Shown one piece after another: positions 7,119-51,744 of a stretch of DNA of 64,000 bases. Positions within the stretch are counted from its first letter, which is position 1. Every line of letters begins with the position of its first letter. Position numbers and translations under genes: made by a program. This DNA comes from a virus. The stretch spans positions 1 through 64,000 of IMG/VR virus record IMGVR_UViG_3300022534_000001; one strand, given 5' to 3'. The notes beneath the pieces are model-generated. The model was given only the letters and a program-made list of their open reading frames with translations. It ran no database searches and was not told the DNA's origin.

Positions 7119-7328
7119 ATGATGAAGCTGGGTGGAGAAGTGGCAAGGCGTGAGCCTCATAAACTCAAAACCGCGGGTTCGATTCCCGCCCCTGCAATCC
7201 ACCTTTGCCAAGGCTACGGCGGACAGGCCATTTTCGACGAAGCCGAAGAGCACCGTCGCGATCTTGAATACGAAAGCGTGCGCGATTGGTACAGCCTCTA
7301 CGAGCCACAGAATGAGGATGAGCAATGA
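7119..7328 (+). CDS. Doubtful small ORF crossing the tRNA-like sequence
   Basis: 69 codons. The first part reads through the tRNA-like sequence and a CCTTTGCCAAGG repeat and looks non-protein-like. The last 31 residues (IFDEAEEHRRDLEYESVRDW and on to NEDEQ) are acidic and look like a real C-terminus. Its stop overlaps the next ATG. The true start is unclear; it may be a gene whose 5' end was replaced by repeat or tRNA sequence. Confidence 0.35.
   Translation: MMKLGGEVARREPHKLKTAGSIPAPAIHLCQGYGGQAIFDEAEEHRRDLEYESVRDWYSLYEPQNEDEQ
7126..7197 (+). tRNA. Degenerate tRNA-Met(CAU)-like sequence
   Basis: The T arm is perfect (GCGGG TTCGATT CCCGC, 7173-7189), the anticodon arm has CAT in a 7-base loop with four of five stem pairs, and the variable loop has the standard five bases. 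The acceptor pairs at five of seven positions (AGCTGGG with CCCTGCA) and ends without an encoded CCA. The D stem pairs at only one position. This could be a decayed tRNA or a divergent phage tRNA; function is doubtful. Confidence 0.4.
7202..7228 (+). repeat. CCTTTGCCAAGGCTACGG repeat
   Basis: Copy of a dispersed word with relatives at 16921-16953, 21261-21296 and, inverted, 37631-37656. It directly follows the tRNA-like sequence. Confidence 0.6.
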
Positions 7329-13086: not shown

Positions 13087-13121
13087 AACGTCGAACGCTG
13101 AACGCCGAACATCCAATGTTT
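13087..13121 (+). repeat. AACGYYS heptamer array between convergent genes
   Basis: AACGTCG, AACGCTG, AACGCCG, AACATCC and a decayed unit. It fills the gap between the plus-strand gene ending at 13076 and the minus-strand gene ending at 13121. Confidence 0.75.
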
Positions 13122-13630
13122 CAATGATCTAGCCGCTTCGCGGTCTGTTTCGATGTTTTTCTCGCGTTTGAGATCGCGCGCTTGACGATAATCTTTGCCC
13201 CAATCTTGGTGAACGGCAGTTTCGCGCGATCGGCTTCCTCTTTAAGCCAGCCAACGATTGTATCGATGTGCTGTTTGCACCAATCAATGCCCATCTGATT
13301 CATCACGAGCATCCGAGTATTACATTTGCAATTAGGGGCTGGTTTTAGGCCTAGCTTTGATAGCAGTTTTTTCAGCTCGGTGCCCGGTCCAGATAGATTA
13401 ACGGGCTGTGTAGTTGGCGATTGCCGCGCGGGTAGAGCCGCCGAGGATAACTTGGGAACCACCGCCTTCGGCGCGTATTTCTTGCGCAAGACAGAATAAA
13501 CTGCGTGTTCGATATAAAGAATGTCTCCCTCAATTCGGCCAGCTGAAAGAAACTCATCTAAATATCTAGCAGGCCGATTACCAGCCTTGGCTTGCAAATC
13601 CGAAATTCGTATTTTGCCAGGTTCACTCAT
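13121..13630 (-). CDS. Phage protein with CxC-type C-terminal domain
   Basis: 169 residues; the start chosen is the ATG at 13630 (MSEPGKIRISDLQAKAGNRP). The C-terminal half (CKCNTRMLVMNQMG, DWCKQHIDTIVGWLKEEADR, LPFTKIGAKIIV) resembles a domain I have seen at the ends of phage structural or glycosyltransferase-linked proteins in similar genomes. Cysteines C-x-C and a later C may bind metal. Last gene of the minus-strand cassette and overlapping the stop of the one before it. Confidence 0.65.
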   Translation of the reverse strand: MSEPGKIRISDLQAKAGNRPARYLDEFLSAGRIEGDILYIEHAVYSVLRKKYAPKAVVPKLSSAALPARQSPTTQPVNLSGPGTELKKLLSKLGLKPAPNCKCNTRMLVMNQMGIDWCKQHIDTIVGWLKEEADRAKLPFTKIGAKIIVKRAISNARKTSKQTAKRLDH

Positions 13631-14880
13631 GGTGCTGGTAAAAAACCACATGGATCAGGATCACAGTCAGTTCCACTCCCCATAAAAGTTCCGCCATCGA
13701 CCTCACAAGCGAATTGAGTTACATCACTATAGCAAATACCGTCTAAACAGCACGCGCCCAGGCACGGATCAGGGTCACAGGTTGTTCCATCACCCTGATA
13801 AACTCCAGTAGGATTACTTATACACTCTGCTTCGCTAAGGATAAAACAACCATCACTCGTGCAACACGCGCCTGTTCCCGGCGGTGTCGTGCAAGTATCT
13901 TCTTCACACGGGACGTTATCACCCTGAAATGCTCCTTCGGCAGCGATGCACTCAGCCTCAGTTTTACAGGAGCAATCCTCACCCTCGCAGCACGCGCCTT
14001 TGCACTTGTCGGGACAGGCACCAACTACCCTAACGTTCGTGAGCGTAGTTTCGCCATTGACCTCTGGCGCTAAGACTTCATCCCCGATTATCTCAGTCTC
14101 TCCTACCGCAATCGTTACAGTCTTCGGTGTATCTACCAGGTCTCCATCATCATCAGGAACGAAGTGCTCATTATATTTAATGCGAATGTCGATGTCTTGC
14201 GGACAAGCTATTGTGAATTTCGGTTTGAATTTGGAAAGGCTGTCGCTGCTTCCCCCCTCAGTAATTATATCCCGGACAGCACTGCAAGAACCTCCAAAAG
14301 TCCCCGGATATGGAACATCATTTAGATGTTCAAGAAGCATCTCATCGGTGTATGGGTCAGATAGATACCAACTGCCAGAAGATACTGTGCGATAACCTTC
14401 AAAGGTGTGATCGGAATGCAACGTAGCGGATGTTGGCGATACATCCCAATCATCATCGCTCGCAAATGGCGGACTAAACCAATCCAAGCTACCATAGGTC
14501 GTTGTTGGCGGAGAGGCGTCACAATGAGTGGTAACGGTAGTGCAGTCGCCAAGGTGTGAATCAGGAAGAAAATCGCAATCAAGTGAAACATCTGGCACCA
14601 AACCAAGATGGTGCTCCATATTTGTGCATGTCTGGACTGCTCCTTCAACGTTCCCTCCACATGGGCCAACCCGCGTAACAGTGGATGTATAATCGTTTAT
14701 CCCGCGCCTGAGATAATGATCAGTTTCTGTGCCATCAAAATTGAAAAATCCGCATTTTTGCACCTGAACGGAATCGCAAACTACAGAAACAGCAGGACAA
14801 CACCCCGGAGCAAACAAAACCTTCTGCTCAGCAGGGTCATACAGGACCTTGCCCTCAGAATTAACTAAAACCCCGGGCAT
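13627..14880 (-). CDS. Virion surface-type protein with cysteine-rich tandem repeats
   Basis: 417 residues. Residues 1-290 form an unfamiliar beta-rich domain. The C-terminus holds three repeats of the form GACCxxDGxC, TEAEC, G-x-F-x-G-x-G-x-x-C, DPDPC, near residues 295-335, 340-370 and 373-412. Such repeats are common in secreted or surface proteins of Planctomycetes/Verrucomicrobia-type bacteria; here they probably form a disulphide-bonded extracellular stalk or adhesin on the virion. Starts in a TAATG overlap with the gene upstream. Confidence 0.7.
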   Translation of the reverse strand: MPGVLVNSEGKVLYDPAEQKVLFAPGCCPAVSVVCDSVQVQKCGFFNFDGTETDHYLRRGINDYTSTVTRVGPCGGNVEGAVQTCTNMEHHLGLVPDVSLDCDFLPDSHLGDCTTVTTHCDASPPTTTYGSLDWFSPPFASDDDWDVSPTSATLHSDHTFEGYRTVSSGSWYLSDPYTDEMLLEHLNDVPYPGTFGGSCSAVRDIITEGGSSDSLSKFKPKFTIACPQDIDIRIKYNEHFVPDDDGDLVDTPKTVTIAVGETEIIGDEVLAPEVNGETTLTNVRVVGACPDKCKGACCEGEDCSCKTEAECIAAEGAFQGDNVPCEEDTCTTPPGTGACCTSDGCFILSEAECISNPTGVYQGDGTTCDPDPCLGACCLDGICYSDVTQFACEVDGGTFMGSGTDCDPDPCGFLPAP

Positions 14881-15557
14881 TACGCGCAGCCTTCCCCATC
14901 ACCGCACTTGGTAGCGCCGCACTCAGCAACGCAAACGGCGATCCACTTTTGATTGCCGTCCGATGAATCGAAACCCCAGATCCAGTTTTTGTCTTCGTCG
15001 AGTCCTGTGGTGGGAAGCACTTCGAATACTATGTCGCCGCAGATTTCGTTGGTCGGGGTGACAACCGGTGTGGCTCCGGAGCTATCAACTTTTACGTGGC
15101 CTATTGTTTTGTAGGCAATGCCACCGGCGTTGTCTGGCGTGGCTGCGCCGTTGTTGAGCGAGACGCTGGTAATGGTTCCAGTGGATTGGTCTAGTGTGCA
15201 TTCAGCCCAGATTTCGTCGCCATCGGCTACTTCTAACTGATAAGTGTCGCCGCTAGGCATTCCGCTGGGGTCGATGCCGTCGCTGTTGGGATCGTAAACT
15301 ACGCCGTCGAGGATGAGCACCAGCGCGGTGCCTGGTTCGCTGGCATCGGAGAGACGGAAGGAGAAACGAACGCCATCTGCCGGATCAGCCCTGCCTGCGC
15401 GATCAGCGTCAACTGCCCATACTTTGCCGTCTGCGCCGACGATTCGCGCGGTCCTTGGCGATTTACTGGCCGGAACGTGGTCGGCGGCCCTGTGGATTTG
15501 TTGCAAGCCGCGAATGTGCGGCGGCGCATGTGACCAATTTGAGGGTTGCCAGGGCAT
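14880..15557 (-). CDS. Putative virion decoration or fibre protein
   Basis: 225 residues beginning MPWQPSNWSHAPPHIRGLQQ. It is beta-rich, acidic and ends with a short cysteine motif (VAECGATKCGDGEGCA). A central TYQLEVADGDEIWAECTLDQ stretch looks like a carbohydrate-binding or decoration-protein beta sandwich. Not recognised at family level. Translationally coupled to the cysteine-repeat gene after it. Confidence 0.65.
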   Translation of the reverse strand: MPWQPSNWSHAPPHIRGLQQIHRAADHVPASKSPRTARIVGADGKVWAVDADRAGRADPADGVRFSFRLSDASEPGTALVLILDGVVYDPNSDGIDPSGMPSGDTYQLEVADGDEIWAECTLDQSTGTITSVSLNNGAATPDNAGGIAYKTIGHVKVDSSGATPVVTPTNEICGDIVFEVLPTTGLDEDKNWIWGFDSSDGNQKWIAVCVAECGATKCGDGEGCA

Positions 15558-15570
15558 TTTAGGGAACCTT

Positions 15571-15605
15571 TTTAACCACGAATGGACACTAATTTACACG
15601 AATAG
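15571..15605 (+). repeat. ACCACGAATGGACAC repeat, left arm
   Basis: TTTAACCACGAATGGACAC, then TAATTTACACGAATAG. It is the inverted counterpart of the copy at 15807-15840; the two enclose a small minus-strand ORF. Confidence 0.75.
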
Positions 15606-15828
15606 CTGATTTCCCGGATGGCACGGATTTTGGTTTAGGAACACCGAGTAGGCTGTTTTGTTGGATAGGGATCGCTTCTGGATGCTCACGCCGATCAACA
15701 ATATTTCCGTTCGACAGACACCCGCCAAAACCAGCTTTGACTACCTCGCGGATCTTACACAAAGCATCCACCTTGGGTTGATCTTCGGGTCTGATCGCCT
15801 TCAGAGATTCGTGTTTATTCGTGTCCAT
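15589..15828 (-). CDS. Small ORF with both ends made of repeat sequence
   Basis: 79 codons. The start (MDTNKHES) is read from the CACGAATAAACACGAAT repeat and the end (SVPSGKSAIRVN) from the other repeat arm. The middle (IREVVKAGFGGCLSNGNIVD, then RREHPEAIPIQ) looks like an ordinary conserved small protein I think I have seen in related phage contigs. Function unknown. Confidence 0.45.
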   Translation of the reverse strand: MDTNKHESLKAIRPEDQPKVDALCKIREVVKAGFGGCLSNGNIVDRREHPEAIPIQQNSLLGVPKPKSVPSGKSAIRVN

Positions 15829-15840
15829 TCGTGGTTTTCT
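15807..15840 (+). repeat. ATTCGTGTCCATTCGTGG repeat, right arm
   Basis: Inverted copy of the 15571 arm. On the minus strand it supplies the last codons and stop of the glycosyltransferase (KKTTNGHE) and the first codons of the ORF at 15589-15828. Confidence 0.75.
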
Positions 15841-16921
15841 TTAAGAGGTCTGCCCACCAAGGCCAGCAGGCATCGGGGTTGCCGTGGCCTGTGGTGACGA
15901 GCTGCGCGTAAGCCTGGCTGGCGATGGCGCGCCGCATGTTTGGGTAAAAGGCCAGTTCGCTGGCGCGGAAAGCGGCTTCATCGGGTGAATCGACCAGAAA
16001 ACCGGTTTCTTTGTCGGTGATCAGTTCTTTGGCGCCGCCGCGGTTATCGGCTATGACCACTACGCCGGCAGCCTGCGCTTCGAGCATAATGCGACCCAAA
16101 GCTTCTTCCCATTGGTAATCGCACACGTGCACAAGCACATGGCTACGGGCGTAAAGCTCCGACAGCGTTTGGCTGTCGTGTATGTGCTGGTGCAACGTGA
16201 CGTTGAGTTCGTTGTGCCATTTACAGGAATTATCGGTTGCCGTTGGGTCGCCTACTTTTGCGGCGGCTTCCGGGCCGAACCCGGCAATTTCGATCTGGAC
16301 GCTGGCGCCCGCGGGCGCGGTGACACCGCAAAACATGCGCCACGTGTCGGGATGCCATTTATCGGGGTCGTCCCGGCAGATTTTCAGGGCGCGAAATGTT
16401 TTGTCGTCGCGCTCGGTTCTGAAACGCAGTGGCAGATAGCGGCTTTTGGTGTTGATGAAAGCTTTGTAACCTGAGCGGGCTTTAACGGCTTTATGAGCGC
16501 GCCGGGCGATGATGGGGCCGAGTTTGTCTGCCAACGCGCGGCTTTGAAAAAAAAACTCGTCGATTAAGCCTTCCCGGTGCGCGGCGATCTCGTCGTCGGT
16601 GGCGTAGTGCATACAATCGGAGTAAACGAAATAACCGGGGCGATCGTTATTTTCCCGGATGAGCGGGAACAGGCGGACGCCTTCACCGAAAGACATGAGG
16701 ACCTGGCACTCTTTGAACATGCCCGGTGTGTACTGAACCAGTGTTACGCCAAGTTTGTCCCGGAGATAATCGGCAGCGGGGTTGCCGTGGTCAATGATCG
16801 GATCGCCCGGCGGCACGATCATGCGCACAGGGACTTTGCGCGAGCGCAATAGCTCGATGGCGCCTAATATCTCGGTGCCGCAGCCGCCGCATTGGTGGAC
16901 GATGCCGAAGAAGTTGATCAT
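15815..16921 (-). CDS. GT-B glycosyltransferase
   Basis: 368 residues from the ATG at 16921 (MINFFGIVHQCGGCGTEILG). An upstream in-frame ATG at 16996 is less likely because the added residues come from the CCTTTGCCAAGG repeat. The C-terminal EALGRIMLEAQAAGVVVIAD followed by NRGGAKELITDKETGFLVDS is the nucleotide-sugar site of GT1/GT4-type enzymes, including the E-x7-E pattern. The neighbours in the cassette are Ser-rich surface proteins, so it may glycosylate virion proteins; DNA or host-surface targets cannot be excluded. Confidence 0.8.
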   Translation of the reverse strand: MINFFGIVHQCGGCGTEILGAIELLRSRKVPVRMIVPPGDPIIDHGNPAADYLRDKLGVTLVQYTPGMFKECQVLMSFGEGVRLFPLIRENNDRPGYFVYSDCMHYATDDEIAAHREGLIDEFFFQSRALADKLGPIIARRAHKAVKARSGYKAFINTKSRYLPLRFRTERDDKTFRALKICRDDPDKWHPDTWRMFCGVTAPAGASVQIEIAGFGPEAAAKVGDPTATDNSCKWHNELNVTLHQHIHDSQTLSELYARSHVLVHVCDYQWEEALGRIMLEAQAAGVVVIADNRGGAKELITDKETGFLVDSPDEAAFRASELAFYPNMRRAIASQAYAQLVTTGHGNPDACWPWWADLLKKTTNGHE

Positions 16922-16953
16922 CCTGCTTTGCCAAGGCTTCGCAGGACGAAGGA
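16921..16953 (+). repeat. CCTGCTTTGCCAAGGCTTCG repeat
   Basis: Forms a short hairpin (TCCTGC with GCAGGA around CTTTGCCAAGGCTTC). It sits right at the chosen start of the glycosyltransferase. Confidence 0.65.
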
Positions 16954-16976
16954 GATCGTCCAATGTTGAATTAAGA

Positions 16977-17702
16977 TCATGTGGGAACGCCTTCAAAGAA
17001 CAGGCCGCCGGCTACGGGGATTTCCATTTGGAAGTCTACGGACACGTCTTCGTAGCGTGTTGAAACTTCCGGGGCAGGATTTTCGGTGGTAGTGGAAGTG
17101 CGGCTGCCGTGCGTGGTGCTGGTGGTGCGGGTCGGATCGGTGTGGGTGGTTTGCCTGCTACTGGAACCGCTTTCAGAGGCTGAGCCGCTGCTAGAAGTGG
17201 ACGTGGAATGGGAACCACTGCGACTGCCGGAACTGGATCGGCTTGAACTGGTGCTGCTAGAATGCGTGCCGCTGCGACTAGAGGACGCACTGCGACTGCT
17301 CGATGTGCTGGCGCTATGCGTTCCGCTACGCGAACCGGTGCCACTACGCGACGACGATGTGCTTGCGCTGTGCGTCCCGCTACGCGAACCTGTTCCGCTG
17401 CGACTGCTCGACGTACTGGCGCTGTGTGTGCCACTGCGTGAGCCGGTGCCACTACGCGATGACGATGTGCTGGCACTATGCGTCCCGCTGCGGCTTGAAC
17501 TGGTGCTGCGACTGCCTGACGTGCTGGCGCTGTGCGTGGTAGCGCGGCTGGTGCTTCCGCTGCGGCTGCTGGACGTGCTACGGGTGCCGCTGCGGCTACC
17601 GGTGGCTGAGCGCGTAGAGGATTGGCTTGTCGAATGGCTAGATGAACTGTTTTCCGATGTGCCGTGCTCAGTTCTGCGTTGGTATAGACGGTAATCAGCC
17701 AT
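16977..17702 (-). CDS. Ser/Arg-rich low-complexity protein
   Basis: 241 residues. Residues about 15-190 are tandem variants of SRSGTHSASTSSSRSGTG, a period near 17-18 residues, with few other amino acids. The ends are not repetitive: MADYRLYQRRTEHG at the N-terminus and YEDVSVDFQMEIPVAGGLFF at the C-terminus, the latter a probable folded or binding part. An SR-like flexible linker with many possible glycosylation or phosphorylation sites. TAATG overlap with the gene upstream. Confidence 0.65.
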   Translation of the reverse strand: MADYRLYQRRTEHGTSENSSSSHSTSQSSTRSATGSRSGTRSTSSSRSGSTSRATTHSASTSGSRSTSSSRSGTHSASTSSSRSGTGSRSGTHSASTSSSRSGTGSRSGTHSASTSSSRSGTGSRSGTHSASTSSSRSASSSRSGTHSSSTSSSRSSSGSRSGSHSTSTSSSGSASESGSSSRQTTHTDPTRTTSTTHGSRTSTTTENPAPEVSTRYEDVSVDFQMEIPVAGGLFFEGVPT

Positions 17703-18523
17703 TATAGGGGTGGTTCCTCGTAATAAAGGGTTTCGACGTTAGCGCCGCCCGTAACATGATAGGTTACCTGGTCGCCGGCGGACGAACCGCTTTCGGACGA
17801 CGATTCATCGTGCGTCTCTGAATCCTCGCTGGTGCTGGTCTCGCTTGAGCTCTGGGTTTCGCCGCCGCCGTCGCCACCGGCGGTTTCAGAGTTTTCTGCG
17901 CCTGTAGAATTGTCAGCGGATTGCTCACCGCCGCTGGAAGCGCCTTCGTCGCTGGATTGGTTGCTTTCAGCGGATTCTTCGCCGCCGCTGGAAGCACCCT
18001 CGTCGCTGGATTGGTTGCTTTCAGCCGATTGCTCGCCTCCGCTGGACGCGCCTTCATCGCTGGATTGGTTAGTTTCGCTGGATTGCTCGCCGCCGGCGGT
18101 AGCTGAGTTATCGATGCCACCGCTTTGTTCGATGGAAGAATCGCCGCCTGCAGCGGATCCCGATTCGACGCCGGCACTGGCCTCGCTGCTTTGGTCGGTG
18201 CCGGTGTTGATGCCGTTATCAGTTGAGTTACGGGTGGAAGCGGTCACACCGGATTCGACACTGGTGGAAACGACGCCTTCGCGGACTTCGTAAACGGTGG
18301 AAGGATCGTCAACGGTGACGCGGACAATGGGGCCGGAGCGGGACGTGGAACTGATGCGGGTAAGATCGTCTTTGCGAATGATAGCTTCGCCGGAGATGCG
18401 AATGGTGGCAGGCTCGAGGACTTGCAGAATGTTATCGTCCCGCGTTTTGCGCAGGCCCACGCGTGTTTTATAGCAAAGCTGCGCGATAAAATCGGGCAGA
18501 TCATTTAGATGAATCTTTGCCAC
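17702..18523 (-). CDS. Surface-type protein with Ser/Glu/Gly tandem repeats
   Basis: 273 residues. Residues 1-90 form an ordinary folded N-domain (LPDFIAQLCYKTRVGLRKTR, VLEPATIRISGEAI, RVTVDDPSTVYEV). From about 100 to 245 the chain is Ser/Glu/Gly/Asn, with three near-identical 18-residue units SSDEGASSGGEQSAESNQ. The C-terminus (DQVTYHVTGGANVETLYYEE) is again non-repetitive. First gene of the minus-strand cassette; with the SR protein and the glycosyltransferase it suggests a set for heavily modified virion appendages. Confidence 0.65.
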   Translation of the reverse strand: MAKIHLNDLPDFIAQLCYKTRVGLRKTRDDNILQVLEPATIRISGEAIIRKDDLTRISSTSRSGPIVRVTVDDPSTVYEVREGVVSTSVESGVTASTRNSTDNGINTGTDQSSEASAGVESGSAAGGDSSIEQSGGIDNSATAGGEQSSETNQSSDEGASSGGEQSAESNQSSDEGASSGGEESAESNQSSDEGASSGGEQSADNSTGAENSETAGGDGGGETQSSSETSTSEDSETHDESSSESGSSAGDQVTYHVTGGANVETLYYEEPPL

Positions 18524-31893: not shown

Positions 31894-31940
31894 ATCTCAC
31901 CGACGAACTACGCGCCGAATACATCCGGCTTTTCAAATGA
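31890..31940 (+). pseudogene. 16-codon ORF resembling a lysozyme N-terminus remnant
   Basis: MNLTDELRAEYIRLFK with ATGA overlaps at both ends. It reads like the first residues of phage muramidase-type proteins (LRAEYERLF) but stops at once, directly before the GH75-like gene. It may be a relic left when the lysin gene was replaced, or only a coupling leader. Confidence 0.3.
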
Positions 31941-32458
31941 AACTAATGTTCACCCATCGCAGTGCAGAGAACGCGGGCTACATCTATTACGCTAATGTCA
32001 TTCTCGATGACACGCGTATCCTCAACGGGAAACCGTGTTACTTCTGGTTTGGCGACGCTGACAACGACGTGGATGGCGCTCCGTACTGGCACGAGGATCA
32101 GTACGGCCAAGCTGGAACTCGCTGGACGTATAACGGAAAGCCTATCAATGGGGATGTGATTCCTTACATCGTTGTACCGCCGCAAGTGATCAAAATGACA
32201 CCTGAAATTGTGGGCGGATGTATCGGTTCGATGTACTACAAGGACAAAGAAGTAGCTTGCGTGGTTGGCGATTCCGGTCCTACCAGCAAGATCGGGGAAG
32301 CGAGCCCTGCCGCGCTGCGCGCTCTAGGGTTGCCGGCGCCACACAACGGTAACGGTGGTCTGGATACTCAGGAGATTCTGTACAGAATTTGGCCGGGCGT
32401 CAAAAGCGTATTGCAAATAAACGGTCAAACCTACGCATTCGAACTACAACCCTCATAA
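31937..32458 (+). CDS. GH75 chitosanase-like hydrolase (probable lysin)
   Basis: 173 residues. CVVGDSGPTSKIGEASPAAL (about residues 114-133) is the hallmark region of glycoside hydrolase family 75, with an upstream FGDADNDVDG acidic cluster. Family members cut beta-1,4-linked glucosamine polymers; in phages such domains sit where endolysins do. Here it lies after the holin-like genes, so a role in cell-wall breakdown is likely. No signal peptide, so export would depend on holin. Overlaps both neighbours. Confidence 0.7.
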   Translation: MKLMFTHRSAENAGYIYYANVILDDTRILNGKPCYFWFGDADNDVDGAPYWHEDQYGQAGTRWTYNGKPINGDVIPYIVVPPQVIKMTPEIVGGCIGSMYYKDKEVACVVGDSGPTSKIGEASPAALRALGLPAPHNGNGGLDTQEILYRIWPGVKSVLQINGQTYAFELQPS

Positions 32459-33060
32459 TGTTTGACGTTGCGAAAGAAATCACGGGACAGACTTTGGGAC
32501 GACTGATAGTTCTAAAGCGTAGCGGAACTGCCAAAGGCAGGGCGATGTGGGAATGCCTATGCGATTGTGGGAATAAAATCGTAATCAGTGGTCACGGACT
32601 ACGAAGCGGTAACGCCAAGTCATGCGGCTGCTGGCAACGCGATTGGGCGAAGATCAACTGCGCGAAGATGCATCAACTACCGCACGGATCATTGAAACAC
32701 GGCGAAGCGATGGTAGGAAAGAAAACCGCGCGATGGCTGATGTTTCAAGGAGCAAAGAGCCGTGCAAGGCGTGACGGTGTTGACTTCAGTATTTCACTGA
32801 ATGACATCAAGATACCTACTCATTGTCCAGTTTTGGGCGTTTCTATAGAACGGCATGTCGGAGGACGTGGCCCTGCTCGAAATAGCCCTACGCTTGATCG
32901 TATTTCCGCTTCAGATGGATACGTGAAGGATAATGTTCGCGTCGTTAGTCATCGCGCAAACCGTCTAAAAGCAGACGCGAACTCGGATGAATTGAGCGCA
33001 ATCTTGCGTGATTTGATTATGATTGAGCAGGAGGAAGTTGACCACTTATGCCGAAGCTGA
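32458..33060 (+). CDS. HNH-type endonuclease, free-standing
   Basis: 200 residues from ATG 32458 (TAATG overlap). CLCDCGNKIVISGHGLRSGN followed by KSCGCW is the zinc-binding N-part, and SPTLDRISASDGYVKDNVRV then VSHRANRLKADA the catalytic HNH-like part common in phage homing endonucleases. Probably a mobile homing gene inserted after the lysin gene. No intron is seen. Confidence 0.75.
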   Translation: MFDVAKEITGQTLGRLIVLKRSGTAKGRAMWECLCDCGNKIVISGHGLRSGNAKSCGCWQRDWAKINCAKMHQLPHGSLKHGEAMVGKKTARWLMFQGAKSRARRDGVDFSISLNDIKIPTHCPVLGVSIERHVGGRGPARNSPTLDRISASDGYVKDNVRVVSHRANRLKADANSDELSAILRDLIMIEQEEVDHLCRS

Positions 33061-33132
33061 TTCAGGAAGTCTAGTTTGCCCTGCAACACTCATAACGACG
33101 ACGAGGATTCGGTGTCGCGTGCGCGTTTTCTC

Positions 33133-33291
33133 ATGTCGCCGTGGAACGTGCGCGAGGCTCGGAGGCGCAGGCGCAATGACAGGCTGTGGATTGCGTTGGC
33201 CGTCATTGTGTTCGCGGTTGTGGAACTCATTTTGATTTACGCGTTTGCCCTCCAGTGCGGCTGGATCGGGAGCGTAGCGCTGCCAGGGTAG
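33133..33291 (+). CDS. Small single-span membrane protein
   Basis: 52 residues from ATG 33133 (MSPWNVREARRRRRNDRLWI), then a span (ALAVIVFAVVELILIYAFAL). Other starts (GTG 33112, TTG 33076) are possible. Its 3' end overlaps the end of the opposite-strand gene. Confidence 0.5.
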   Translation: MSPWNVREARRRRRNDRLWIALAVIVFAVVELILIYAFALQCGWIGSVALPG

Positions 33292-33682
33292 CTTCGCGCA
33301 GCCGCAACACGTGGCCCATGCCGCGGAGTTCTGCCACGGGTAGCATGGTTTCAAGGCAACGGCGCAACACGTCGGCGTGCAACAAGTAGCGATCGCGCTG
33401 GCTCATGCGCTCATGGATCTCGCGCAATGTTTTGGCGATTGCTTTGGACGTGCGCACGGTCATCATGGCGTCAAGGGTGTGATCGCCCACTGGCCGGAGG
33501 AGGCGCACTTTGCCGGCGTGCGCCAGGAGGGCAGCGGCTTCCATGCTGTAGCGCAGCACGTCGGCTTCCGGCATTTCGCACGCCTTGCAGATTCTATTGA
33601 CGGCTTTCCGCAGTCGTTGCGGGACGCGCGGCGCGAATTTCACACTGAGGTCCGGTTTGTGCTGGCGTGTCATGGCCGACAA
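33227..33682 (-). CDS. Putative DNA-binding regulator
   Basis: 151 residues. DLSVKFAPRVPQRLRKAVNR and EMPEADVLRYSMEAAALLA look like a ribbon-helix-helix-type N-terminus; the rest is helical and basic. Second gene after the RHH gene at 33670, which it overlaps by 13 bases, so the two are co-transcribed leftward. Likely a regulator or its partner. Confidence 0.5.
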   Translation of the reverse strand: MSAMTRQHKPDLSVKFAPRVPQRLRKAVNRICKACEMPEADVLRYSMEAAALLAHAGKVRLLRPVGDHTLDAMMTVRTSKAIAKTLREIHERMSQRDRYLLHADVLRRCLETMLPVAELRGMGHVLRLREATLAALRSRSSRTGGQTRKSK

Positions 33683-33876
33683 TATTTTATTTGTTTCTTG
33701 GGAAGCGCCTGCAATCCTTCATTCGTGGACTCTTCGGGGGTTTCCATTATACGCTGGAGCCTTTGAAGAGCCGCGTCTTCGAGCCATTTAGACGCGGACT
33801 CGCGGCGAAGTTTTGCAGCGGCTGCAATCTTTTTGATCACTTCCGTGTCCATACTGACACTCTTCGGAACCTTCAT
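33670..33876 (-). CDS. Ribbon-helix-helix regulator
   Basis: 68 residues, MKVPKSVSMDTEVIKKIAAA then RRESASKWLEDAALQRLQR. This is an RHH fold: a short beta strand (KSVSM) and two helices. It aligns along its length with the divergent gene at 33959 (SVSQWLTDAAMERLSR), so the pair look like paralogs. Such proteins bind operators as dimers of dimers; probably half of a phage switch. Confidence 0.6.
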   Translation of the reverse strand: MKVPKSVSMDTEVIKKIAAAAKLRRESASKWLEDAALQRLQRIMETPEESTNEGLQALPKKQIKYCRP

Positions 33877-33958
33877 TTTGCTGAATTTTCTAATAATTTA
33901 ATCAAATCGCAAGTTTTTTCTTGCGAAGTCTTATTAAGAGTTAATAATCCACATTTAT
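33877..33958 (+). promoter_or_regulatory. AT-rich divergent control region with two inverted repeats
   Basis: Between the divergent RHH genes. TCGCAAG/CTTGCGA (33907-33926, six-T spacer) and the perfect TTATTAA-GAG-TTAATAA (33931-33947). The composition is far more AT-rich than the flanks. Likely holds promoters for both directions and RHH operators; the first repeat could also act as a leftward hairpin. Confidence 0.6.
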
Positions 33959-34159
33959 ATGGCACAGACTCCGGAAGCTAATGCGAGAACGAAAAAGCGA
34001 GGTAGACCGCAGATGATGCAGTCGCCAGCAACGACCAGCATTAGTGTCGAAAAAAAGCTACTTCAAAGGATTCAAAAAATTGCGTATGCAGGGCGGCAAT
34101 CTGTGAGTCAATGGCTGACTGACGCAGCGATGGAGCGATTATCGCGTGAGAACAGATGA
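33959..34159 (+). CDS. Ribbon-helix-helix regulator (rightward)
   Basis: 66 residues. A basic N-terminus (RTKKRGRPQMMQ) precedes TTSISVEKKLLQRIQKIAYA and GRQSVSQWLTDAAMERLSRE, an RHH fold. First gene of the rightward early block. Paralogous in appearance to the protein encoded at 33670-33876 on the other strand. Confidence 0.6.
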   Translation: MAQTPEANARTKKRGRPQMMQSPATTSISVEKKLLQRIQKIAYAGRQSVSQWLTDAAMERLSRENR

Positions 34160-34626
34160 TTGATTACGCTAATCTTCCAAACGTAGCTAATCTGCCGACT
34201 GTCGAAATCCCGGCACGAACAGAAAACATTCGCGGAATGTCGCGACGCGAAAAACAAAATTACGCGCACAATGAATTATCTAGGGCACGCCGGAAACGTT
34301 TAGTGCTGATTGGTCCGTGCGCGATGTGCGGTTCGGATGAGAAAATTCAAGGACATCACCCGAGCTACGATCATCCTAGGCTAATTGTCTGGCTCTGCCC
34401 GAAGTGCCACGGGGCGATTCACCGAAAGCATAAAGTCCCGATCAATCTTTCGATACGGGCTGACATCACTTTGGCGATTAAGGTACACGTAACGGCGCAT
34501 CCTGAATGTGGATTCCGCAATGTTTCCGAACTTACCGAGAATCTATGGATTTCTTACCTGCGGCGCAAAGGGGCCAAACTCCCGACACTTTTCAAGCAAT
34601 CCAGCAATGGGAAGGCGCGTAAGTGA
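34156..34626 (+). CDS. HNH-like zinc protein
   Basis: 156 residues. CAMCGSDEKIQGHHPSYDHP and WLCPKCHGAIHRKH form a zinc site (CxxC, HH, CxxCH) typical of HNH-like phage proteins; this subgroup is often annotated only as hypothetical. The N-terminal 35 residues include MSRREKQNYAHNELSRARRK. Could be a nuclease or nucleic-acid binding protein. ATGA overlap with the RHH gene. Confidence 0.6.
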   Translation: MIDYANLPNVANLPTVEIPARTENIRGMSRREKQNYAHNELSRARRKRLVLIGPCAMCGSDEKIQGHHPSYDHPRLIVWLCPKCHGAIHRKHKVPINLSIRADITLAIKVHVTAHPECGFRNVSELTENLWISYLRRKGAKLPTLFKQSSNGKARK

Positions 34627-35018
34627 ACGTGTTCGATGAACTGGCTACGGTGGGCGTCCCTGCGCCTACGGATGCTCTGCACGTGGGGAGCAAAGCCGAA
34701 GCTGAAAAGGTGAGCCGGATGGATTGCCGTGAGATGCAGCCCGATGAGAAATACGTGTTTTTAACCTGCCAGATCGGGAAGCAAGGGTTTGGCCGGTTTC
34801 ATTTGAAAGCGTTCGGTGCGACGTGGAACGCGGCGCTGATGATGCTCTGGATGGCGGGAGCGATCAAAAAACCAATTTCAGCCGGAAATAATAAACGGCG
34901 TCCAACCGTTGCGCATACTGGGGAAGCAAAGGAGCCGGGGAGAAATCCGAGCTCGCCGGCTGAAAATCTTTCGCAGGAAGAAATCGAACACCTGCCGTAC
35001 CAAATAGCGCGCAAATGA
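34623..35018 (+). CDS. Hypothetical early protein
   Basis: 131 residues, GTG start. Residues 45-85 look folded (YVFLTCQIGKQGFGRFHLKA, NAALMMLWMAGAI); the C-terminal 50 are disordered. Not recognised. Confidence 0.6.
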   Translation: MNVFDELATVGVPAPTDALHVGSKAEAEKVSRMDCREMQPDEKYVFLTCQIGKQGFGRFHLKAFGATWNAALMMLWMAGAIKKPISAGNNKRRPTVAHTGEAKEPGRNPSSPAENLSQEEIEHLPYQIARK

Positions 35019-35215
35019 AAGCTGATAAGGCGATACGATTTTTGCAGAGACTGTGCGCCGCTCGCTTCGGAAACAAACGCGGCCAGGATTCCAGTGGTGA
35101 AGCTACGCTTTATATCGGGTGCGATCATGTGGAGTTGACCAACAACGAGTCAGTGATTTCAGCGCGCGGTCCGGCGCAGGTGGCGCGGGTGTTGAGAAGG
35201 AGGCGGCGGAAATGA
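35015..35215 (+). CDS. Hypothetical small basic protein
   Basis: 66 residues, MKADKAIRFLQRLCAARFGN, ending VARVLRRRRRK. Start and end both in ATGA overlaps. Function unknown. Confidence 0.55.
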   Translation: MKADKAIRFLQRLCAARFGNKRGQDSSGEATLYIGCDHVELTNNESVISARGPAQVARVLRRRRRK

Positions 35216-36715: not shown

Positions 36716-37888
36716 ATGAACAACGAAAACGCACAAGAAGGACAATACGAAATCGTAACCACCACACCCACCGCGCTCGAATCAATGGAGCGTGCTGGAA
36801 TAGATATGCAGATTTCCACAGCGAAGCGATACCCGCGCAGTCTCGCCGTCGTGAAAAAGCGGATGCTCGATCTAGCGACTCTAGACCAAGAAACCGCTGC
36901 GAGTTGTTTTTACCGGCTGAATCGACAAGGGCGAAATATCGAAGGTCCAACGATTCGCCTTGCCGAAATCGCTGTCAGTTCATTCGGAAACCTTCGGTAC
37001 GGGGCTCGTGTCATTTCAAACGACAAAAAGGTTATCACGGCACAAGGCTACTGCTTCGATCTTGAATCTAATGTGATGAGTCAGGTCGAAGTGCAGCGGC
37101 GCATCACAGACAAAAACGGCAATACTTACTCCGACGATATGCAGGTTGTCACTGGCAACGCTGCTTGCGCTATAGCGGCGCGTAATGCCGTGTTCAAAGT
37201 CGTGCCGTTCGCTTTCATAAAGCCGATATTCTCGGCAGCGAAGAAAGCGGCTGTTGGCGACATCAAAACGTTAGTGGAGCGCCGAACCACAATGCTTAAA
37301 ACCTTCGCGGCGCTAGGCGTCAATGAGAAAAGAGTGCTGGCCGTACTTGGTAAAAACGGTCTCGAGGAAATTGGGTTGGCTGAATTGGAAATCCTGATCG
37401 GATTACACAACGCAATCGAAGACAAAGAGCAAACCGTCGAGGAAGCGTTTCCGTCTGTCATAATCGAACGCGCGAAAATCAACGGCAACGCTGCCGCTAC
37501 GGCAACTCCGCCATCGGACCCAGCGCCGACGGGCGAGAAATCGGCTAATCCAAAGGGCCGTAAGAGAGCGCAACAGCCACAAGCTCAAACGCCCAACGCG
37601 GCAACTGAGCCCCCTGTCAATGGCGCAACGTCCTCCGAAGCCTTGGCGAAGGAGGATGAATCACTCGCCGTGCAGGTCGCCGTGAAGTTGAAAGAAGGCG
37701 GCTACGATGAATCGGAGTTGGTAGAGCTGGCCATCGCTAACAACTGGTGCGAGACCACCACCAAAAACCTTTCGCAGATCAGTGAGACGAATCTGCAGGT
37801 ATTCGTCGATAACTGGCAATCAACGGTCACTGAGTTGGACAGCCAACGCGCGGATAAAGCGAAGAAAGAAAAAAGTCCACTGGATTGA
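36716..37888 (+). CDS. Phage recombination-type protein (candidate annealing protein)
   Basis: 390 residues; AAAGGAG about nine bases upstream sets the start. The N-terminal 240 residues (STAKRYPRSLAVVKKRMLDL, QETAASCFYRLNRQGRNIEG, PTIRLAEIAVSSFGNLRYGA, NAACAIAARNAVFKVVPFAF) match a family I know from phages, always near exonuclease genes, that behaves by context as a single-strand annealing partner. The C-terminal part is a flexible linker with a Cas-like repeat insert (37631-37656) and a short helical domain. Function is inferred from the neighbouring PD-(D/E)XK nuclease. Confidence 0.6.
   Translation: MNNENAQEGQYEIVTTTPTALESMERAGIDMQISTAKRYPRSLAVVKKRMLDLATLDQETAASCFYRLNRQGRNIEGPTIRLAEIAVSSFGNLRYGARVISNDKKVITAQGYCFDLESNVMSQVEVQRRITDKNGNTYSDDMQVVTGNAACAIAARNAVFKVVPFAFIKPIFSAAKKAAVGDIKTLVERRTTMLKTFAALGVNEKRVLAVLGKNGLEEIGLAELEILIGLHNAIEDKEQTVEEAFPSVIIERAKINGNAAATATPPSDPAPTGEKSANPKGRKRAQQPQAQTPNAATEPPVNGATSSEALAKEDESLAVQVAVKLKEGGYDESELVELAIANNWCETTTKNLSQISETNLQVFVDNWQSTVTELDSQRADKAKKEKSPLD
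37631..37656 (-). repeat. CCTTCGCCAAGG repeat, inverted, in frame
   Basis: TCCTCCGAAGCCTTGGCGAA on the plus strand; the reverse complement matches the 7202, 16921 and 21261 copies. Translated as SSEALAKEDE in the linker of the recombination protein. Confidence 0.65.
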
Positions 37889-43683: not shown

Positions 43684-43940
43684 ACTCACTAACTCTTAAA
43701 TGGGGTACAGTTAAGGGCTGGAATCTTGACTCACCAGAGGCGCAAGCTGCCCTGCAAAAATGGGCTGACTTCGGTCATTCAGTAAGTGCTGCGTGTCAGC
43801 ACGACACTCCGGAACAGAAACAAGCTCTTTTGGAAGCCATCGACCACATGGATGAAATCTACTTGGATTGGGACGGGAAATATGTGTCCCGGGAAGAAGC
43901 CAAGGAATACGTGCGTAATTACGGCAAGGCTACTGCATGA
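43680..43940 (+). CDS. Hypothetical small helical protein
   Basis: 86 residues, GTG start overlapping the previous stop. Helical and acidic (EQKQALLEAIDHMDEIYLDW). Its 3' end overlaps the 3' end of the integrase gene by 22 bases. Confidence 0.55.
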   Translation: MNSLTLKWGTVKGWNLDSPEAQAALQKWADFGHSVSAACQHDTPEQKQALLEAIDHMDEIYLDWDGKYVSREEAKEYVRNYGKATA

Positions 43941-44992
43941 AAGGCTTTATCCAGAGCGCCGCGGCGCGGTCGCAGTTTGGCGTAGGTGCGCTGGTACGTG
44001 CGAAGGTCTATTCCCATCCACGTGCAAATCTCAAAATCGCTCGGACCGCCCAGCATAGGGTCCATCGATGCCAGCAAACTAGCGAATGTATGTCGCATGA
44101 TGTGCGGTGTTACCCAGGCGCATTTCTGTTCTTTCATGTAGAGCGTGAACGGCCGCTTGAAATCGTAGCGATACCGGTTTTTTCCGTGCTTGTTTTCCGG
44201 ATGCAACATGAACGGCTCCTGCAGGCCGTAATCATCCCGCAGGAACGTTTGGAAATCACTCGTCAACGGAATCGTGCGCTCTTCCAAATCTTTGAAATTG
44301 ATCGTCGGCGTCTTGCGCAAGTGCAGGTGCCCGCGTTTCAGGTCGAACCACCAAGGCACCGATTCAACTATCTCAAGCGCGCGCAGGCCGGTGTGAAACC
44401 CGCAGTAGAGCACGTATTTCAGATCGGCGCGCGGACATTCACTAATGAGTTTCGCCACCAGTTCAAGCGAGCAAAAGTCTTTGCGAGCCGCACGCGGCGG
44501 CGTTTCCACCTTTACCAGGATACAAGGATTCTCGCGCGCCAAGTGTTCGGTCACGCACCAGTTAAAGAAGCTGCGCACCGTCATGTAATTGCCGTAGGCA
44601 GTCTGGGCGTTGAGCGAGCGCAGCCGCATCTGATAAAACTTGCGGATATGCTCGCTGGTTACACGCTCCGGAGTGAGCTTTCCGACGTAATCGGAAAACT
44701 GGCGCAGCGTGTAAATCTTAGAATCAGCCGTGCGCCGGGCCCAGCCTTTGCGGGCACCACGTTCGCGCGCTGCGGCCATGTCGCGCACGAATCGGTCAAC
44801 GCAGTTAATCAACAGCAGGCCAGACGTGATTGTTGGCGAATGGCGGATCTGCGCGGCCTTGCGAATCGCAGTCGCCAGGTCCGCAGTGTTAAGCGAGAAA
44901 AATTTGCGCTTTTTATCCTTCTGATGGCTAAACCAGTACAGATTCCCGCGCTTATAGATGCCGCGGGTAAGCCGTTTGTCGCTGACTGTCAC
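43919..44992 (-). CDS. int: Tyrosine-family integrase
   Basis: 357 residues, GTG start at 44992. Catalytic R204 (HTGLRALEI), H297 and R300 (TPHIMRHTF), W325 in place of the second His (ICTWMG) and Tyr near 337 (QRTYAKL). N-terminal arm-binding region with basic RLTRGIYKRGNLYWFSHQKD. It would integrate the phage at a host tRNA gene; the likely attP is directly upstream of its start, and TGTCACA repeats overlap the start codon. Convergent to the early block. Confidence 0.85.
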   Translation of the reverse strand: MTVSDKRLTRGIYKRGNLYWFSHQKDKKRKFFSLNTADLATAIRKAAQIRHSPTITSGLLLINCVDRFVRDMAAARERGARKGWARRTADSKIYTLRQFSDYVGKLTPERVTSEHIRKFYQMRLRSLNAQTAYGNYMTVRSFFNWCVTEHLARENPCILVKVETPPRAARKDFCSLELVAKLISECPRADLKYVLYCGFHTGLRALEIVESVPWWFDLKRGHLHLRKTPTINFKDLEERTIPLTSDFQTFLRDDYGLQEPFMLHPENKHGKNRYRYDFKRPFTLYMKEQKCAWVTPHIMRHTFASLLASMDPMLGGPSDFEICTWMGIDLRTYQRTYAKLRPRRGALDKAFHAVALP

Positions 44993-45014
44993 ATTTTTAG
45001 TGTCACATTTTTAG
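44987..45014 (+). repeat. Tandem 14-bp direct repeat at the integrase start
   Basis: TGTCACATTTTTAG twice without spacer. With the TGTCACA copies at 45121 and 45135 on the other side of the tRNA-derived core, these are good candidates for integrase arm-binding sites. Confidence 0.75.
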
Positions 45015-45057
45015 GTGTTTCTTTTGGCCTGTGCAAGTCTCTACAGGGTAAACTCAC

Positions 45058-45112
45058 CGGAGCCTACGGGGCTCGAACCCGCAACCTCCGCCGTGACAGG
45101 GCTGTGGTCTGC
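45058..45112 (-). other. Probable attP: 3' half of a tRNA-Asp(GTC)-like sequence
   Basis: On the minus strand it reads an anticodon arm CAGCC-CTGTCAC-GGCGG with GTC in the loop, a T arm GCGGG-TTCGAGC-CCCGT and an acceptor strand AGGCTCC plus discriminator G. The 5' half (acceptor, D arm) is absent. This is the usual identity segment of phages that integrate into a tRNA gene and restore its 3' end. One anticodon-stem mismatch is present. Confidence 0.75.
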
Positions 45113-45120
45113 ATAGGTGT

Positions 45121-45142
45121 TGTCACACCGTTTTTGTCACAC
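45121..45142 (+). repeat. TGTCACA direct repeats on the right side of attP
   Basis: TGTCACACCG and TGTCACACTT, 14 bp apart, the same orientation as the left-side pair. Confidence 0.65.
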
Positions 45143-45165
45143 TTTGATGACGAAAGGGGCGAACC

Positions 45166-45477
45166 GTGAAGCATTGGGTTTCACTTTGGCGGGTGCCGCC
45201 GCCGGCAAACCAGGTCATCAGCGTCCGGCATGGATCTTCTGTCTGTTTTGCGGCTTATTCCAGGGTACTGGACCAGTGGTTCTTGATCGCTAATGGTAGC
45301 GAGGAGGAGATAGCCGCCCCGGAGATGTGGTTTTGTGATGATGAATACGCGGCGCAACATCAGATCAACGGCGCCGTGGAACCGCAGCGCGAGCGCGTGT
45401 CGCTGCGGGTAGATCGTCGGCCACGGCAACTACAGTTATTTGGTGACAGCGTTTCGCTGTCTGGGAGAGCGGCGTGA
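45166..45477 (+). CDS. Hypothetical protein after attP
   Basis: 103 residues, GTG start. VSLWRVPPPANQVISVRHGS and VCFAAYSRVLDQWFLIANGS suggest a small beta-rich fold. The last residues (GDSVSLSGRA) come from the palindrome at 45445. Unknown function. Confidence 0.5.
   Translation: MKHWVSLWRVPPPANQVISVRHGSSVCFAAYSRVLDQWFLIANGSEEEIAAPEMWFCDDEYAAQHQINGAVEPQRERVSLRVDRRPRQLQLFGDSVSLSGRAA
45445..45461 (+). repeat. GACAGCG-type palindrome 12 bp before a start codon
   Basis: GACAGCGTTTCGCTGTC, both arms perfect with a TTT loop. It precedes the GTG of the Dam-like gene (45474). Confidence 0.8.
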
Positions 45478-50915: not shown

Positions 50916-51145
50916 ACAAAACCTATCTGGGTGATGGCGTTTACGCTGCCATAGAGAATGGCATGATTAAACTCACGACCGAGAACGGCATCTCTCCAAC
51001 GAACACGATCTATCTTGAGCCGCAGGTTTACGACTCCCTCACGAAATGGGTGGCTCACATCAGTGAACAGGCGACAGAGGAACGCAGGCGTCCGCATGAG
51101 GCCAGGGGGTCAAGTGCGTCCAATGCTTGCTTTGGCGCGTTATGA
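50912..51145 (+). CDS. Small conserved phage protein
   Basis: 77 residues, MNKTYLGDGVYAAIENGMIK then LTTENGISPTNTIYLEPQVY. This N-terminus is frequent in phages as a tiny protein of unknown function. AGGAGG lies a few bases before its ATG. Ends in an ATGA overlap with the recombinase. Confidence 0.7.
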   Translation: MNKTYLGDGVYAAIENGMIKLTTENGISPTNTIYLEPQVYDSLTKWVAHISEQATEERRRPHEARGSSASNACFGAL

Positions 51146-51744
51146 AGCGCGTGGCCCTTTACTATCGGGTCTCGACTTACGAGCAATCTGTTGATTCGCA
51201 GGCATTGACGTTACGCGAGTATTGCCGGCGCCGGGGGTGGTCTGAGATCAGGGAGTATTCGGATACTGTGAGCGGCGCGAAGTTTAGCCGTAAAGGACTG
51301 GACAAACTGATGGCCGACGTGCGCCGGCGTAGCGTCGATGCAGTGCTTTGCGTGAAACTGGACAGACTTGGGCGATCGTTACCGCATTTGGCGCAGTTGG
51401 TAGGAGAATTAACATCGCATCGTGTGGCTTTGATTTGTCCGGAGCAAGGCATCGACACGAGCGAAGAAAATCCGGCTGGCAGATTACAGATGCACGTACT
51501 GATGGCTATTGCGGAGTTTGAACGGGAGTTGATCAGGGATCGGACCAGGGCTGGGTTACAAATGGCGCTGGCTCGAGGGGTAAAGCTGGGGCGCCGAAAA
51601 TTTGAGATGACGATTGATCGCAAGATAATTCTGGCCAACTGGCGAGAGGGTCGCGGGAACGGGAATGGGTGCACGATCGAGAGCTTGTCGAAAGAGCTTG
51701 GCTGCTCGGTCGGAACGGCGCACGCATTGGCGAAGGAACCATGA
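51142..51744 (+). CDS. Serine recombinase (resolvase/invertase type)
   Basis: 200 residues from ATG 51142. YYRVST puts the catalytic serine at residue 11; KLDRLGRS and EFERELIRDRTRAGL are the family's conserved arginines and E-helix. C-terminal HTH (IESLSKELGCSVGTAHALAK). Normal resolvase length, so not a large integrase. Between terminase-linked genes; may resolve dimers or invert a segment, but no crossover site with clear dyads was identified. Confidence 0.85.
   Translation: MKRVALYYRVSTYEQSVDSQALTLREYCRRRGWSEIREYSDTVSGAKFSRKGLDKLMADVRRRSVDAVLCVKLDRLGRSLPHLAQLVGELTSHRVALICPEQGIDTSEENPAGRLQMHVLMAIAEFERELIRDRTRAGLQMALARGVKLGRRKFEMTIDRKIILANWREGRGNGNGCTIESLSKELGCSVGTAHALAKEP

Follow-up and report, generated by a model that had tools for sequence, protein, structure and literature searches.

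A pair of small divergent genes, called A and B here, lies at the junction of late and early genes in a phage record and probably controls the choice between lysis and lysogeny in a temperate phage, through two proteins of the ribbon-helix-helix (RHH) type that descend from one duplicated gene; we hold this reading with moderate confidence. The window, i.e., the stretch of DNA analyzed, comprises 64 kb of a 66,947-base IMG/VR phage record. A switch in the style of cI/Cro, built from a duplicated RHH gene, had been proposed in the first-pass annotation. The RHH-type fold, the paralogy and the divergence of the two genes, their late/early position and the integrase/attP context speak for that proposal, whereas the A+T-rich palindrome is weak evidence for it.

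In the mechanism proposed, A would be co-transcribed leftward with gene C and would keep the early operon silent in the lysogen; from a site in the 82-bp gap it would block the rightward promoter that serves B and the recombination and replication genes behind B. On the lytic path B would be made first, bind the same gap and turn A off, and later it would dampen its own promoter in the manner of Arc and Cro. From the layout and by analogy with Arc/Mnt and Cro we infer DNA binding by A and B, the sites and promoters concerned, the opposing roles of the two proteins and their primary role in lysogeny.

Organization of the proposed control region

Genes A and B are read away from the gap with the coordinates and sequences that had already been given for them (Table 1). 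Over its own stretch each of the two has the best codon score among the six frames. The stop codon of A overlaps the start of C in a 4-bp ATGA (33670-33673), and that of B overlaps the start of the HNH gene in the same way (34156-34159). From the codon scores and the overlaps on both sides, A and B look like real genes. B is the first gene of the rightward early operon and has a basic N-terminal tail, KKRGRP. B might also start downstream at 34013, behind a better Shine-Dalgarno sequence (AGGT at 34000); the protein would then be Arc-like with 48 aa, and the gap would widen to 136 bp. The tail has a counterpart, KIGRPKRK, in G009_B of a related phage, which speaks somewhat for the longer form of B.

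Table 1. Features of the window and of the corresponding loci in related phages
Feature	Position	Strand	Remarks
Endolysin-like (GH75-type) late gene	31937..32458	+	Glyco_hydro_75 E 9e-5, below the Pfam cut-off; convergent with C-A
Gene C	33227..33673	-	148 aa; in one operon with A (4-bp ATGA overlap)
Gene A	33670..33876	-	68 aa, RHH-type, sequence SASKWLEDAALQRLQR; candidate lysogeny-side (Mnt/cI-like) repressor
Divergent intergenic region	33877..33958		82 bp, 24% G+C; presumed shared operator/promoter region
Inverted repeat TCGCAAG-TTTTTT-CTTGCGA	33907..33926		Candidate operator
Inverted repeat TTATTAA-GAG-TTAATAA	33931..33947		Candidate second operator; overlaps -10-like AATAAT, 33943-33948
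Gene B	33959..34159	+	66 aa, RHH-type, sequence SVSQWLTDAAMERLSR; candidate Cro/Arc-like regulator
HNH-type endonuclease	34156..34626	+	phrog_2340 E 1.1e-12; second gene of the rightward operon
phrog_3657 protein	36716..37888	+	E 8.3e-53; rightward early operon
Tyrosine integrase	43919..44992	-	phrog_1 E 2.8e-31
tRNA-Asp 3'-half, attP-like	45058..45100	-	43 bp; adjoins the integrase start
RHH locus of G009 (L068)			Endolysin, C-like 3629-4045, A-like 3335-3622, divergent B-like 3059-3232, RecT
RHH locus of G022 (L083)			Endolysin, HTH_31-like gene, RHH gene, divergent RHH gene, exonuclease; start codons uncertain
RHH locus of L110 (G043)			C, divergent RHH pair over 102 bp, RecT, metallopeptidase

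Gene C belongs to a family (MKPHKPDLNEKLTIRMS...) that related phages retain next to their endolysin gene (z = 10.5 against the C of G009), and the N-terminus of this family resembles RHH in the alignment. Searches of C against Pfam, NCBIfam and PADLOC gave no family match, and the AlphaFold model of C alone is of low confidence. Late genes lie to the left of C, the last of them being the endolysin-like gene, and to the right of B follow the HNH gene, small ORFs, the phrog_3657 protein, a metallopeptidase, a PD-(D/E)XK exonuclease, a methyltransferase and DnaB. In the codon-score map all substantial genes between 18.5 and 56 kb run rightward save C-A and the tyrosine integrase. The part of the operon that holds the phrog_3657 protein in the window holds RecT in G009 and L110. 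Relatives found through the phrog_3657 protein have other control regions in which an A/B-like pair is absent.

Probable temperate lifestyle and further features of the genome

The tyrosine integrase and, next to it, a 3'-half of tRNA-Asp make it very likely that the phage is temperate. The integrase ORF is hidden beneath a longer rightward ORF (43937-45169), and the tRNA-like segment, 83.7% identical to the annotated tRNA-Asp of E. coli genomes, is likely to be attP. Temperate phages keep cI/cro between late and early genes. A profile search of the record gave no HTH_3, HTH_31 or S24 domain and no ANT-domain antirepressor; an HTH repressor from some other family could exist in it. This result agrees with the first-pass view that RHH proteins stand in for HTH repressors, but the arrangement was already known from mnt/arc of P22.

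Besides the tyrosine integrase, a serine recombinase of the invertase/resolvase type is encoded at 51127-51744, and a phage-encoded tRNA-Met (anticodon CAT) is located at 7126-7197. A leftward block (13121-18523, -) that separates the portal-like gene from the capsid genes has a weak glycosyltransferase match and looks like a cargo region. Giant DarB-like ORFs are found at both ends of the record (53-6646 in the window, 60000-66947 in the record, L014); they are not exactly joinable in frame, and the record probably represents a near-complete genome opened within one very large gene. L017, a contig of another sample, has a capsid protein of 100% identity; the portion examined does not hold the A/B region.

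Relationship of A and B to RHH proteins and to each other

RHH_1 (PF01402) is the best RHH model of Pfam for both proteins, with 12.3 bits for A and 18.9 bits for B, each below the curated cut-off of 20.5 bits. B matches phrog_2639 (Arc-like repressor) with an E-value of 0.08, and a sequence search of PDB gave no RHH match. In the AlphaFold model of B, helices are formed at residues 30-44 and 49-65 with a pLDDT of about 90, and the strand region at 25-29 is unformed in the monomer. Foldseek with this model placed Arc and other RHH chains on top and returned mostly Arc, CopG and RHH antitoxins, yet all with E > 1, which is not significant for a chain of this length. The assignment to the RHH (MetJ/Arc/CopG) superfamily, although below the formal threshold, is well supported by the pattern together with the homology of A and B to each other.

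A and B had been described as alignable paralogues, and BLASTP joins them with an E-value of 3e-9 (15/37 identical). Their local score of 82 compares with about 27 +/- 5 for shuffles (z about 10) and was reached by none of 3000 shuffles. At third codon positions the two genes are 35% identical, close to saturation, which rules out A and B as recent duplicates; with third positions near saturation within pairs, the resemblance must be ancient or maintained by selection rather than that of a fresh copy. The viral and genome scans gave no relatives of A, B or the A/B alignment, and by tblastn neither protein had relatives among phages, nor B among plasmids, beyond weak matches.

When the proteins are aligned to Arc without gaps, A and B agree at two of the three positions by which the Arc ribbon contacts DNA (Ser, Ser), and the same two are equal in Arc and Mnt (Asn, Arg). 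The shared ribbon residues fit a related yet distinct operator choice of A and B.

The intergenic region

The two palindromes previously pointed out in the gap are both present and perfect. A 7-bp hairpin rich in A+T occurs in 14% of dinucleotide shuffles of the gap, so that the TTATTAA repeat alone is compatible with chance. The TCGCAAG repeat is notable because a 7-bp hairpin with at least 4 G/C per arm, a class picked post hoc, occurred in 0 of 5000 gap shuffles. Two 7-bp hairpins together are found in 5% of the dinucleotide shuffles (P 0.05), and as a set the palindromes are mildly unusual. Neither recurs exactly elsewhere in the 64-kb window. For the longest repeat at any spacing the gap of the window gives P 0.44, in a test that is weak because even the P22 gap with its mapped operators scores only P 0.07.

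The arms of the TCGCAAG repeat supply a -35-like TTGCGA on both strands. On the + strand this hexamer is followed after 16 bases by AATAAT, and the promoter predicted from it would place the transcript start just ahead of B, by a few bases. A promoter scan gave one 9-of-12 site within the gap and, over 2 kb, about the number expected by chance, without excess. A terminator scan listed the TCGCAAG hairpin on both strands, but a role as terminator was rejected, as its T-run sits in the loop and terminator-like sites in the region number 5, against 2.6 +/- 1.8 in shuffles, which is no clear excess. Rfam gave no match at 33000-35100.

Related phages and their RHH pairs

A scan with the major capsid protein delivered 36 related contigs, three of which were picked by Pfam RHH_1, and L110 (record G043) was added by a scan with the C family. 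Selection of the phages relied on matches to the capsid, the C family or Pfam, never on likeness within a pair. Three related uncultured phages, G009, G022 and G043/L110, possess a divergent RHH pair of their own in the same kind of locus (Table 1). The RHH_1 score of G022_A is 18.1 bits, and RecT and the metallopeptidase of L110 were named by sequence likeness to proteins of the window and of G009. Integrases are present in G022 and G043, an endolysin stands beside the pair in G009 and G022, and in L110 a small ORF separates A and C. In G022 the neighboring HTH_31-like gene suggests that the RHH pair may act jointly there and not alone. G011 (L070:2923-3253, -) has two RHH genes in tandem in the early operon and no divergent pair; they overlap by about 115 bases in different frames, and C is found elsewhere, without an adjacent A. 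Among most of the related contigs, many of which are fragments, a recognizable RHH pair is absent.

The gap of G009 contains a 10-bp inverted repeat (P 0.003) and that of L110 a 12-bp direct repeat (P < 0.001); gap sequences and repeats of the window differ from those of the G009, G022 and L110 pairs. After B, another small protein of similar pattern is encoded in the early operon of G009 (L068:2603-2797, -; ITLTVPRGTRQWLRDVERKTDITPEDILRLG) and of L110 (within 3048-3551, -; ITILAPRGTRKLLQELRESCGLTTEDVFSLG); both are possibly further RHH proteins.

In the window, G009, G022 and L110, the best match of every RHH protein is its own partner (8/8, z 8.9 to 10.9), and the pairing of A with B within each genome ranks best among the 24 possible pairings, or among 120 with P22 included. 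The A proteins are hardly alike across phages: A of the window reaches z 0.7 with G009_A, at most 3.2 with any RHH protein of the three divergent-pair phages, and 4.4 with G011_1. The B proteins are somewhat alike (B of the window with L110 B, z 8.7; with G009 B, 6.5). Unrelated RHH families for A and B would have spoken against the first-pass annotation; in the trees the two group as sisters (support 91-96/95-96), as do A and B of G009 (82-93/95-98) and Mnt and Arc (96/96-98), and the G022 and L110 pairs show no supported grouping. The AU test speaks against grouping the four A proteins in one clade and rejects such a tree (p 0.016; 0.0003 when Mnt is added), so a single ancient duplication does not account for the pairs, which look repeatedly formed or homogenized. 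With long branches and few columns the tree result is suggestive rather than final. In G009 both members of the pair carry the N-terminal tail RPKxKDxxQK, and the matching tails favor duplication over convergence. It is a tentative proposal, possible but short of probable, that these phages are one temperate lineage with an RHH/RHH primary switch, in which the repressor has repeatedly been replaced by, or homogenized with, a copy of its antagonist, each phage having a private pair and operator.

Alternative explanations

The likeness of A and B could be one of fold only, the two genes having been acquired independently, since RHH domains are small and occur widely; trees with long branches and few columns leave some room for this. 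The z of about 10 between A and B, set against the much lower values of A with the RHH proteins of related phages, the support for the A+B clade and the tail shared by the G009 pair nevertheless make independent acquisition very unlikely. Hardly any credence is given to the reading in which A would be the RHH antitoxin of an A-C toxin-antitoxin operon and B an unconnected, autoregulated early gene. In operons of that kind a short gene for the RHH antitoxin usually comes first and overlaps the longer gene behind it, and A-C fits this plan. However, C matches nothing in the three databases searched and its family begins with an RHH-like N-terminus, A and B are sisters, and A and C are separated by a small ORF in L110 and apart in G011; on the C family, the A/B sisterhood and these layouts the toxin-antitoxin reading was rejected.

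An arrangement like immI of P22, in which the pair would fine-tune a few early genes and an unrecognized repressor elsewhere would keep lysogeny, is unlikely but deserves serious consideration. P22 itself uses mnt/arc as a module secondary to C2/Cro (PMC11016777), an HTH_31-like protein adjoins the RHH pair of G022, and several ORFs of the window have no family match. Against a secondary module stand the profile search of the record, negative for HTH_3, HTH_31, S24 and the ANT-domain antirepressor, and the position of the pair, which heads the early operon whereas that of P22 lies inside the late operon. We retain lysis-lysogeny control by the A/B pair as the preferred reading.

Implications

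If A and B form the primary switch, two RHH sisters would suffice for a bistable phage decision, with no HTH repressor, S24 domain or antirepressor involved, and induction would then have to take another route. The sister-pair pattern bears on the origin of immunity specificities, with a regulator being duplicated and copies and operator diverging together, and it predicts many mutually non-immune phages in one lineage. The A/B pairs are small proteins suited to testing this idea of specificity divergence.

Comparison with known systems

In the immI region of P22 (NC_002371, 14519-15022), mnt (-) and arc (+) diverge over 90 bp, and both there and in the window two paralogous RHH genes are read away from a short gap. 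Mnt and Arc are likewise sisters (19/40 identical). Oarc and Omnt lie 27-47 and 51-73 bases from mnt, the palindromes of the window 30-49 and 54-70 bases from A; in both gaps the two elements are adjacent and 3-4 bp apart, and in both systems a longer gene stands on one side and the shorter gene heads the rightward operon. Mnt acts as the repressor of arc-ant; Arc in turn represses mnt and also moderates ant (PMC11016777). By its layout the pair of the window would function like mnt/arc, and since mnt/arc is known, divergent paralogous RHH repressors are no new idea. Kinship to the P22 proteins is weak (B with Arc, z about 5; A with Mnt, z about 2). P22 has ant downstream of arc, whereas an HNH gene follows B and ant is absent; sar is present in P22 and not annotated in the window. 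Unlike in immI, a recombination and replication operon lies behind the HNH gene of B and C lies behind A, and immI is situated inside the late operon, between genes 16 and 9, whereas A and B are at the late/early junction. With ant absent and the locus different, the pair falls outside immI as defined. As far as the sequences go, what is new relative to P22 is the location, the partner genes and the repeated sister-pair pattern.

SSV1 F55 is a small RHH protein that holds lysogeny by repressing early promoters (PMC5569661); it is described as a single regulator, belongs to an archaeal virus and has no known kinship to A or B. With the cI/cro switch of the lambda type the window shares a divergent repressor and early regulator, the latter heading the early operon, a shared control region and an integrase. 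The lambda-type switch consists of HTH proteins, whereas the window has an RHH-type pair instead, and as no S24 autoproteolysis domain is found in the window, induction would differ from that of the lambda type.
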